Translations under genes and position numbers: made by a program
Assembly (NCBI RefSeq): GCF_009795885.1
Contig: NZ_WTEV01000001.1
Coordinates: forward strand, 62,001-126,000
Direction of reading: 5' to 3'
Length of the DNA: 64,000 nucleotides
Origin: Gilliamella sp. Pas-s25
GTDB taxonomy: Bacteria; Pseudomonadota; Gammaproteobacteria; Enterobacterales; Orbaceae
The notes under the pieces: model-generated
Database searches by the model: none
The model's input: only the letters and a program-made list of their open reading frames with translations
Told to the model about the DNA's origin: nothing
In this document: positions 25,541-64,000 of the stretch, piece by piece
Layout: the number at the start of each line of letters is the position of its first letter
Numbering within the stretch: the first letter of the stretch is position 1

Positions 25541-25621
25541 AAATTCCTCATATTAAAAATGTTTATTTTTAACAGAGTTAGAGCGGGTGTGTCCTATTTA
25601 CAATTAAAAAATACAGACCAT

Positions 25622-25783
25622 GAAGCGCTCCACCTGTTAAGGTGACAACCCAAGGGATTCAGCCCTTGCAGTCGATTTGATGGCTTCTGGATTGGCAATC
25701 AAACCTCGGCATTACATCCCCTCGATCATTTATTCGTGGTTCCAGTCCCTAAAATGATTTACCTGAGTAATGCGCCTCTTCGT
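25622..25783 (-). promoter_or_regulatory. Lysine riboswitch (L box) in lysC leader
   Basis: Reading the minus strand, the leader carries the L-box conserved words in order: GAAGAGGCGC, GACTGGAACC, GAGGGGATGTAATGCCGAGG, GGGCTGAATCCCTTGGGTTG, TCACC and GGTGGAGCGCTTC. They match the E. coli lysC riboswitch in order and spacing. P1 is formed by GAAG near 25781 and CTTC near 25622. A TTGACA lies upstream on the same strand (25841-25846). About 80 nt between the aptamer and the lysC ATG would hold the expression platform, probably acting on translation because no long U-tailed terminator is seen. Confidence 0.93.
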
Positions 25784-25896
25784 TTTTGCAACTTCAGTAA
25801 CGAAGTCAGCGTTATATAGGATTAACGATTTTATTAATTGTGTCAATAGGTTAAATATTAAAAATTATTAGGTGTAATAAGTGAAAATTGCAAGTC

Positions 25897-38330: not shown

Positions 38331-38720
38331 AAGTGAAATTAACCGATAAGCCGGGTTCTGTCGTGGACAATCATTCCTCTAGGCTAATGCTCACGCATTA
38401 GCTCAAGCAGTCTACCCGGATTCAACGCGGGCCGCGCCAATGAATCCCTATTTGACCTTGCTCCGAGTGGAGTTTACCGTGCCACAACTGTTACCAGTTG
38501 CGCGGTGTGCTCTTACCACACCCTTTCACCCTTACCTGATCTTATAAAATAAGCCATCGGCGGTTTACTTTCTGTTGCACTAGTCGTGAATTTTCGCTCT
38601 CGCAAAAAAACCCCAGGCGTTACCTGGCACTCTGCCCTATGGAGCCCGGACTTTCCTCCCCTCTGTTTGTCTCCTTTAATAAAAGGACAGCAACAAAGCA
38701 GCGATTGTCTGGTTAATTTC
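38331..38720 (-). ncRNA. rnpB: RNase P RNA, catalytic subunit (type A)
   Basis: Ribozyme that removes tRNA 5' leaders. Reading the minus strand from 38720, the conserved type A elements appear in order: GAAATTAACCAGACAATCGC, the universal GAGGGGAGGAAAGTCCGGGC (near 38640-38665), GGCAGAGTGCCAGGTAACGCC, the AGGTAAGGGTGAAAGGGTG block, ACGGTAAACTCCACTCGGAG, and the 3' end GACAGAACCCGGCTTATCGG. Its length of about 390 nt is slightly above the 377 of E. coli. The predicted protein in this region on the same strand is spurious. A promoter fits the 5' end exactly. Confidence 0.97.
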
Positions 38721-47338: not shown

Positions 47339-47396
47339 TTCATATAGAACTATATGAAAATAGCGAGGAGTGTCTGAATTAGAGATCGGTCACTCC
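47339..47396 (+). promoter_or_regulatory. Structured rpsO leader, candidate S15 autoregulatory RNA
   Basis: Two hairpins follow the promoter: TTCATATAG/CTATATGAA (47339-47347 with 47350-47358) and GGAGTG/CACTCC (47367-47372 with 47391-47396). In E. coli, S15 represses its own mRNA through a leader pseudoknot at the ribosome-binding site; this leader could act likewise, but the fold is not the E. coli one by sequence. Confidence 0.4.
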
Positions 47397-47426
47397 ACAT
47401 TTTATTTTGATTTTAAGAGGTTTGTT

Positions 47427-47696
47427 ATGTCTCTAACTGTAGAAACTAAAGCGAAAATTGTTGCTGAATATGGTCGTGATGCTAAAGATACTGGTTCAAC
47501 TGAAGTTCAAGTTGCTCTTTTAACTGCACGTATTAATGATTTACAAGGTCATTTTTCTGAGCACAAAAAAGATCACCATAGCCGTCGCGGTCTATTACGT
47601 ATGGTGTCTAGCCGTCGTAAATTATTAGACTATTTACGTCGTAAAGATATTGAACGTTATAGCCAATTAATTAAAAAGTTAGGTTTACGTCGCTAA
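47427..47696 (+). CDS. rpsO: 30S ribosomal protein S15
   Basis: Primary-binding 16S rRNA protein of the 30S platform. The start at 47427, with an AAGAGG ribosome-binding site, gives 89 residues including the initiator Met, the standard length; the longer upstream frame is a leader artefact. The sequence is almost wholly conserved: [47 protein letters not shown], ending in KKLGLRR. It is followed by an intrinsic terminator and then pnp, as in enterics. Confidence 0.98.
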
Positions 47697-53284: not shown

Positions 53285-53720
53285 TCATAAAACGTTTTAC
53301 CTGTAATCGCTTAAACTTTTAGTTTTCTATCTTTTGAATGACTCATTATTTGCGGATTATGGCACATCGCCATTAAAGTACGTATTACGCTTTTGACTTA
53401 CCCATTTATTTTAGGGCTGGTTGGTTTTGTGTATTTCTAATGGATACGATGGCGAGCGCACGTTTTAACCAATGAACGATGGCAAAGTCTCAATTTATCC
53501 CGAAACGGTATAGAATCCTGAATATTTTTTACAAAAAATATAACCTAAAAGGTGAATAGTTGGGTAAATATCCGATAGTGAGCACGCAACTCATCTAGAA
53601 AATGATGCTATCTGTTCTTGTGTTTTATATTCAATAGCAGTCATGTTATTGAATGTTTAATGAGATCTTTCAGTGCGATAAATAGTTGGACGATTAGCCA
53701 TAAATATAAAGTAGTTAGCC
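53285..53720 (-). pseudogene. Decayed IS relic with transposase C-terminus, copy 2
   Basis: Related along its length to 23030-23470. On the minus strand the recognisable transposase tail reads NNMTAIEYKTQEQIASFSR, corresponding to NNIIPIEYKTLKQAA of copy 1, with a frameshift immediately upstream. Shared non-coding blocks include CGAAACGGTATAGA (53501) and TTTTCTATCTTTTG. More decayed than copy 1. The rest of the 53169-53985 gap shows no gene. Confidence 0.55.
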
Positions 53721-58256: not shown

Positions 58257-61355
<3,099 letters not shown>

Positions 61356-61467
61356 CTAATTTGGTTTGTTTATATAATGCTGATAACTGATCATTACTCG
61401 TATTATCATTGCGCTTTTATAAATTATAAATTACAGGTGATTAAAAACAGTGATGAAGTTAACATTT

Positions 61468-61483
61468 ATGTAATCGTATACAT
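61468..61483. promoter_or_regulatory. GalR-like operator 1
   Basis: ATGTAATCGTATACAT, a near palindrome centred on CG. It matches the GalR/GalS operator consensus GTGTAANCGNTTACAC except at both outer bases and one inner base. A GalR-like repressor gene ends 2.2 kb away. Confidence 0.6.
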
Positions 61484-61524
61484 TTTTATATAATATATGT
61501 TTTATTGTTTTGCAATTTTTTTAA

Positions 61525-61540
61525 GAATGACCGATTACAC
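61525..61540. promoter_or_regulatory. GalR-like operator 2
   Basis: GAATGACCGATTACAC: the right half CGATTACAC is identical to the GalR/GalS consensus half-site and the left half is degenerate (three mismatches over the whole site). Its centre is 57 bp from operator 1. Confidence 0.5.
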
Positions 61541-61574
61541 TTGTTTGTGTTGTTATATAAAGTGATAATTTTTA

Positions 61575-61592
61575 ATGTGATATCAATCACAA
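61575..61592. promoter_or_regulatory. CRP (cAMP receptor protein) site
   Basis: TGTGATATCAATCACA contains both consensus half-sites (TGTGA and TCACA) with 6-bp spacing, without mismatch. Its centre lies about 61 bp upstream of the start predicted from the promoter at 61609-61636, the class I activation position. Confidence 0.85.
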
Positions 61593-61608
61593 TATTAGTA
61601 TTTAGTTT

Positions 61609-61636
61609 TTGAATAGTCGTTTTTATTGGTTATATT
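61609..61636 (+). promoter_or_regulatory. Porin promoter
   Basis: TTGAAT (61609-61614), 16-bp spacer, TATATT (61631-61636); transcription would start at about 61644, just ahead of the antiterminator element. Confidence 0.65.
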
Positions 61637-61659
61637 GAAACCACCTATTAAAAGGTATT

Positions 61660-61690
61660 GGATTGTTACCGACTTATAGCGGGCAAAACC
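61660..61690 (+). promoter_or_regulatory. BglG/SacY/LicT-type ribonucleic antiterminator (RAT)
   Basis: 31 nt beginning GGATTGTTAC and ending GGGCAAAACC. These are the two conserved halves of the RAT bound by BglG-family antiterminators (bgl RAT: same two ends, 29 nt). The 3' end overlaps the 5' arm of the terminator at 61687, so folding of the RAT and of the terminator are mutually exclusive. No BglG-family gene is in the window; one is expected elsewhere. Confidence 0.9.
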
Positions 61691-61727
61691 TAAAGAATAG
61701 TTATAACTATTCTTTAGGTTTTTTTTT
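61687..61727 (+). terminator. Regulated intrinsic terminator in porin leader
   Basis: A perfect 34-bp palindrome (17-nt arms, AACCTAAAGAATAGTTA and its complement, 61687-61720) runs into nine T (61719-61727). It lies between promoter and porin start and would abort transcription unless the overlapping RAT is stabilised. Confidence 0.9.
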
Positions 61728-61769: not shown

Positions 61770-63497
<1,728 letters not shown>

Positions 63498-63639: not shown

Positions 63640-64000
63640 CTATTTTATACAATTTACTGAATAACGTTTGGTAAGTGTTGGTATAAAAATATTAATTAAA
63701 TTTGATGGTGGCGCTTCACCTTTAGCCAGCTTTAATGCTAATTCAGCGGCTTGTTCTGCCATTGTTTGTAATGGGTAACGAATAGTGGTTAATTTAGGAT
63801 GTAAATAACGTGATAAAACAAGATCATCAAATCCAATAATCGAAATATTATTTGGAATCTTAATATCATTCTCATAAAGTACCGACATTGCACCAGCTGC
63901 CATTGAGTCGTTGTAACAAGCGATTGCGGTGATATGACAGTTTCTTTCAAGCAACGACATCATTGCTTGTTCTCCACCTATTTCATTGGGTAAGCCGATA
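63640..64000 (-). CDS. GalR/LacI family repressor, C-terminal part (5' end outside window)
   Basis: The frame stays open to base 64000, so only about the last 120 residues are visible; the ATG at 63963 is internal. The segment belongs to the periplasmic-binding-type effector domain of the LacI family: ITAIACYNDSMAAGAMSVL, the conserved SIIGFDDLVLSRYLHPKLTT, VRYP-like IRYPLQTMAEQAAELAL, and the tail FIPTLTKRYSV. These read nearest to GalR and GalS of enterics. It is a good candidate for the protein binding the GalR-like operators near 61.5 kb. The DNA-binding domain cannot be examined. Confidence 0.87.
   Translation of the reverse strand, partial: IGLPNEIGGEQAMMSLLERNCHITAIACYNDSMAAGAMSVLYENDIKIPNNISIIGFDDLVLSRYLHPKLTTIRYPLQTMAEQAAELALKLAKGEAPPSNLINIFIPTLTKRYSVNCIK

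Follow-up and report, generated by a model that had tools for sequence, protein, structure and literature searches.

Two predicted back-to-back control modules between lacZ and a bglH-type porin gene in Gilliamella: CRP with BglG-type antitermination, and CRP with a GalR-type repressor

In Gilliamella sp. Pas-s25, the region between lacZ and a divergent porin gene, bglH, appears to hold two back-to-back modules, one placing the porin under CRP and BglG antitermination and the other placing lacZ under CRP and GalR; on the sequence evidence presented below, we give this reading a probability of about 80%. The genome comprises 2.81 Mb in 109 contigs, and the window referred to throughout is the whole stretch of 64,000 nucleotides that was analysed. 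lacZ (58257–61352, minus strand) is an open reading frame of 1031 amino acids from a GTG start, whose product has GH2 Pfam domains and scores 1613 bits against the NCBIfam beta-galactosidase model (cut-off 1221). Beyond a gap of about 430 bp, bglH (61782–63497, plus strand) is an open reading frame for a 571 aa LamB-family porin (Pfam LamB, 261 bits). The 3′ part of a galR-like repressor gene (63640–63999, minus strand) is convergent with bglH; the gene in full (L011:6640-7644) specifies 334 amino acids, and the best model for its product is GalR, at 549.7 bits, slightly below the equivalog cut-off of 557. In other parts of the window, a lysine riboswitch (25615–25788, minus strand), a ribosomal S15 leader (47366–47483) and RNase P RNA (38331–38720, minus strand) are above the Rfam gathering score; the lacZ–bglH control region gave no Rfam match at the gathering threshold.

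The control block of the porin gene

The porin CRP site TGTGATATCAATCACA (61576–61591) is an exact TGTGAN6TCACA, the sole one in the window, where 0.09 would be expected. With the start taken as 7 nt past the −10, its centre is at −59.5, no more than 2 nt away from −61.5, the class I position, in keeping with the preliminary description of this DNA, which had reported a mismatch-free CRP site at the class I distance. The proposed porin promoter (61609–61636, plus strand; TTGAAT, 16 nt, TATATT) is suggested by its conserved −10 and by the conserved distance to the CRP site; a promoter scan, which found 4 promoter-like matches compared with 4.3 in shuffles, by itself lends it no support.

A ribonucleic antiterminator (RAT; 61660–61690, plus strand) begins 17 nt past the inferred start. 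It has 0 mismatches and is the sole match in the window at up to 3 mismatches, with 0.00 expected from 100 shuffles. An intrinsic terminator (61685–61727, plus strand), consisting of a 17-pair stem (61685–61722) and a T tail, overlaps its 3′ end, the 5′ arm starting inside the RAT. The terminator fold has a z-score of −8.3, and none of 200 shuffles folds equally well. Folded in isolation, the RAT does no better than its shuffles (z −0.29), and its stem, which hardly varies, yields no covariation signal, 272 of 500 shuffles matching the observed pairing. Its sequence, its overlap with the terminator and its context are what suggest a RAT. The BglG-type RAT overlapping a 17-bp-stem terminator, as first described, is borne out by these features.

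Conservation was followed in a sample of 35 genomes of the genus, the porin being found in 25 of them; for the porin match in G029, locus L050 was used and the second piece, L049, dropped. CRP site, −10, RAT and terminator lie upstream of the porin in all 25 bglH loci, the CRP site being an exact TGTGAN6TCACA in every one. By the assumed start, its centre is at −59.5 in 24 loci and at −60.5 in one, and the distance from the start to the RAT is 17 or 18 nt in 24 loci and 23 nt in one. Six pairs of the terminator stem have changed on both sides, which 1 of 500 shuffles achieves, and the observed covariation score is reached by 0 of 500, although kinship can inflate these figures. Frischella japonica has the same porin block, with one mismatch in the CRP site, and in Candidatus Schmidhempelia bombi the RAT has diverged, a terminator can be recognized by eye and the CRP-like site shows two mismatches. 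A class-wide search matched the genome of Pas-s25 alone among 369; because that sample held just three other members of the order, the result says little about spread.

Among named sequences, those most similar to the porin come from Gilliamella, the nearest being 98% identical. The porin is 47.7% identical, over 82% of the query, to a protein annotated as E. coli BglH, and 44–48% identical to porins of Brenneria and Pectobacterium; the NCBIfam maltoporin models match it below their cut-off. In Brenneria, B. salicis included, and in Pectobacterium, the porin relative lies downstream of bglG-bglF-bglB in the same direction, with a 566-aa frame between bglB and the porin relative in one locus (L132). 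Further open frames follow the porin relative, which is therefore not the final frame at these loci. Two of these three loci have a RAT on each side of bglG; the remaining locus begins inside bglG, and one RAT is visible there. Given the place of its relative downstream of bglGFB, the Gilliamella porin looks like a relocated bglH, that is, BglH outside a bgl operon and probably with its own promoter.

The lacZ promoter and the GalR-type operators

The putative lacZ −10 (TATAAT; 61423–61428, minus strand) is recognized by its sequence and by its occurrence with lacZ. A CRP-like site (61446–61467) falls at about −40.5 relative to the lacZ start predicted here, at the class II distance; it matches the E. 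coli consensus at 16 of 22 positions here and at up to 19 of 22 in relatives. Both this site and the lacZ −10 had escaped the preliminary description. The GalR-type operator TGTAATCGTATACA (61469–61482), which we assign to lacZ, is off at 1 of 12 positions. Its centre is 19.0 bp from the CRP-like site, which places it at −59.5 when the start is again taken 7 nt past the −10.

With at most one mismatch, this first operator is found in 20 of 25 genus loci, and the operator and the CRP-like site are 19–20 bp apart in 17 of the 19 lacZ loci. The CRP-like site and −10 of lacZ are present in 19/19 loci with the gene and in 0/6 without it (p 6e-6, kinship not corrected and the CRP-like pattern having been written after the alignment was seen). 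The operator, present in 17/19 loci with lacZ and 3/6 without (p 0.07), by itself shows a weak association. The porin block is kept in all 25 loci, lacZ present or absent. The upstream region that lacZ and the porin had been said to share is shared as a matter of adjacency.

Genome-wide counting of GalR operators with up to one mismatch showed no enrichment, with 6 sites compared with 19 for a reversed control pattern; it is position and conservation, not counts, that argue for the first operator as a GalR site. An internal operator, which in a gal-type promoter would lie near +53.5, was sought between 61161 and 61468, where no site has three or fewer mismatches. The gene that GalR would serve is, on balance, most likely lacZ.

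A lacY-family gene on another contig (G000 contig C37) has a CRP-like site and a GalR-type operator upstream (L141:1405-1514), 20 bp apart, and an additional operator-like site (2/12 mismatches) nearer the gene; lacZ and lacY, at two loci, may both be run by GalR. A GalR-operator-like site with 1 mismatch at 53302–53315 of the window is far from the lac genes and likely due to chance. Several Gilliamella (L116, L112, L113, L126 and L128) lack the lacZ gene next to bglH or have just a fragment of it, and in L112 the lacZ space holds four 274-aa frames with alike beginnings.

The second palindrome (61526–61539) has 3/12 mismatches, a threshold at which the window contains 43 matches, with 43.7 expected. 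Two GalR-like palindromes had been claimed for this region; the first, off at one position, suitably placed and conserved, stands, and the second is doubtful given its mismatches and this chance-level count. Across the genus, 8 of 25 loci share a CG-centred site whose distance from the centre of the porin CRP site is 44–51 bp. It has 2 mismatches in L040, L041 and L045 (0, 0 and 1 of 500 shuffles being as good), 3 in L025 (Pas-s25), L026 and L035 (15–20 of 500 shuffles), and 4 in L036 and L037; in the remaining 17 loci the best match at this place has 4 or 5 mismatches. All eight loci contain lacZ. Where the first and second sites are both present (L025, L026, L035, L036, L037 and L045), they are 57–58 bp apart; in L040 and L041 the second site is the better one and the first operator has decayed. 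The second palindrome could be a second lacZ operator or could act on the porin.

The preliminary description had gone further and placed the porin itself under repressor control. A reading in which the porin is governed by CRP, BglG antitermination and a GalR-type repressor, with lacZ and the porin co-regulated via one region, can draw on the recurrent second site, which has 2 mismatches in three of its eight loci, and on its regular distance from the first. It can also draw on the perfect first operator that stays in L038 and L039, though lacZ and its CRP-like site are gone there, on the one-mismatch operator that likewise stays in L027, and on the convergence of the galR-like gene with the porin. 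We nevertheless consider this reading unlikely. The first operator keeps gal-operon spacing (19–20 bp) to the lacZ CRP-like site and −10, whereas the gap between it and the porin CRP site ranges from 70 to 116 bp; this operator gives no support to the repressor control of the porin proposed in the earlier account. Moreover, L028, L031 and L047 have an intact porin block and no first operator; 17 of 25 loci lack the second site, and the other eight all contain lacZ; and a CRP–operator pair of the same kind precedes lacY. The galR match in G021, the genome to which L039 belongs, has two stop codons, which fits a relic operator there. The second palindrome, being nearer the porin, leaves some room for porin repressor control. 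We favour separate modules, with GalR most likely acting on lacZ.

BglG and its candidate targets

The preliminary description had named the lack of a BglG-family gene as grounds for giving up antitermination, and had called for a search for other RATs. The genome encodes one CAT-RBD (BglG/LicT) protein, on another contig than the porin and in a bgl operon; the other PRD proteins are without CAT-RBD. This protein has a CAT RNA-binding domain and two PRDs, and scores 383.7 against the LicT model, over its cut-off of 300, and 300.3 against the BglG equivalog model, under its cut-off of 322. Aligned with LicT structures, it has His at the two PRD2 positions where 1tlv carries His and 1h99 carries Asp. 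The operon runs bglG, RAT-terminator, bglF, bglB, a histidine-phosphatase-family gene, RAT-terminator and a second porin. The bglF product (631 aa), which adjoins bglG, scores 717.8 against TIGR01995 (over the cut-off of 614.7) and 803 against the narrower PRK09824 model (under the cut-off of 894). The second porin has no Pfam or NCBIfam match, and we use the name as a tentative reading of its sequence.

By pattern, the genome has four RAT-terminators, before bglF, the second porin, bglH and a GH3 gene, three of them thus additional to the one originally described. No RAT lies before bglG in Pas-s25 by the RAT-terminator pattern. The periplasmic-type GH3 enzyme (651 aa, with a signal-peptide-like start judged by eye) is encoded at an unlinked locus (L110:7166-9118) with its own CRP site and RAT-terminator upstream. 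An exact TGTGAN6TCACA is found upstream of the bglF and GH3 RATs too in Pas-s25, and is absent upstream of the second-porin RAT, which is internal to the operon. Two CRP/FNR-family proteins are encoded in the genome. At 46 nt, the RAT in the bglG–bglF gap (L010:7340-7600) exceeds the usual 29–31 nt and has a long upper hairpin; those downstream of bglG in Brenneria and Pectobacterium, at 42–44 nt, are likewise longer than usual.

The RAT-terminator pattern occurs in 29 of the 35 genus genomes, and a reversed control in none (0/35). Sorted by distance to the porin or to a CAT-domain match, the 67 sites comprise 25 at bglH, 24 just after bglG (a position before bglF being checked in Pas-s25 alone), 11 at the second-porin position and 7 others. 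Six of these seven had a testable locus, and all six precede a GH3 gene; of the 11 at the second-porin position, four were tested and all four precede a second porin. Among the 30 genomes that are at least 90% complete, 21 have both bglH and BglG, none has bglH without BglG, five have BglG without bglH and four have neither (p 0.005, kinship not corrected, a CAT fragment below cut-off in G009 being counted as no BglG). BglG-family genes with no RAT by the strict pattern occur in G010 (complete) and G033 (74% complete); in G030 (67% complete) and G031 (59%) the porin and RAT are present and no BglG was found.

The block conserved in 25/25 loci, the BglG-family gene and the RAT-terminators in the bgl operon make CRP control and PTS-linked antitermination of the porin, as originally proposed, well supported as a prediction. 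That the RAT-terminator is an inactive bgl-operon relic, with porin expression driven by some undetected promoter beyond the terminator, strikes us as very improbable: Klebsiella aerogenes, whose bglH lacks an adjacent bglGFB, does have two tandem RAT-terminators, as if bglG had been lost, but in Gilliamella RAT and terminator are kept in 25/25 loci with compensatory stem changes and at a fixed distance from an exact CRP site, the plus strand from 61728 to the porin ATG holds no promoter-like match, and the same kind of block precedes GH3.

By analogy with the E. coli (PMC9499468) and LicT (PMC1489936) systems, we propose the following mechanism, in which protein binding, transcript starts, antitermination and the inducer are all predicted from DNA sequence. 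cAMP-CRP at about −60 would activate bglH transcription when preferred sugars are scarce. In the absence of beta-glucosides, the 17-pair terminator would form and the transcript would stop near 61727. Beta-glucosides entering via BglF would lead BglF to dephosphorylate BglG, and the BglG dimer, now active, would bind the RAT and block the terminator, so that bglH is made. The same BglG would act at bglF-bglB, at the second porin of the bgl operon and at the GH3 beta-glucosidase gene, so that entry across the outer membrane, extracytoplasmic hydrolysis and uptake by the PTS would respond in concert. In the opposite direction, lacZ would have a separate gal-type promoter, with CRP bound near −41 and GalR near −60.

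We think it fairly probable that one LicT/BglG antiterminator commands a dispersed CRP and RAT regulon comprising two porins, the GH3 enzyme and the PTS operon, built by repeating the CRP-promoter-RAT-terminator block at unlinked loci. If so, the plant beta-glucosides that the host eats would control this entire chain in the bee gut. Such a regulon would show how targets can disperse while each keeps the same RNA switch.

Comparison with known systems

One close likeness is to the E. coli bgl operon, which has a CRP-activated promoter, terminators opened by BglG, the sensor BglF and the porin BglH (PMC9499468, PMC2646131). Two terminators flank bglG in E. coli and bglH is the fourth gene (PMC2646131, PMC9499468); in locus L153, two RATs and bglB-bglH are seen. 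In Gilliamella, by contrast, the RATs precede bglF, the second porin, an unlinked bglH and an unlinked GH3 gene. The bglGFB homologues of E. coli and Klebsiella are described as mapping differently, with bglH at the same place (PMC2646131). Klebsiella aerogenes (L152, LR134132) resembles Gilliamella in having a bglH, with no bglGFB in the stretch, behind upstream RAT-terminators, and so bglH apart from bglGFB is not unique to Gilliamella. It differs in having two tandem RATs about 65 bp apart, compared with one in Gilliamella, and in its best CRP-like match, which has 1/10 mismatches where Gilliamella has an exact CRP site. Its bglH adjoins phoU, as the E. coli bgl operon does, whereas the neighbourhood in Gilliamella differs; the tandem RATs next to phoU make the Klebsiella arrangement look like a bglGFB deletion.

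The LicT systems of Bacillus subtilis and Streptococcus mutans offer a second likeness. In B. subtilis, LicT serves bglPH and a separate secreted-glucanase gene. In S. mutans, the antiterminator gene is followed by a RAT and then a PTS gene (PMC1489936); the Gilliamella operon has this order too, and its antiterminator is over the LicT model cut-off. Unlike these LicT systems, Gilliamella has CRP sites, and porins and a GH3 enzyme as candidate targets. On the lacZ side the likeness is to E. coli gal P1, where the GalR operator is at −60.5 and CRP at −41.5 (PMC4693257), compared with −59.5 and −40.5 for lacZ by the assumed start; the differences are that the gene here is lacZ and that no internal operator was found downstream.

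The regulation of sugar uptake in Gilliamella, bee symbionts, is described as unclear in a 95-genome survey (PMC11325843), and the scheme proposed here gives a concrete wiring for its beta-glucoside part. Among the titles listed in searches of an open-access collection, none describes this arrangement, and that collection held no paper joining Gilliamella with BglG. All the parts are known kinds of switch, from bgl, LicT and gal systems alike; their arrangement appears to be new.
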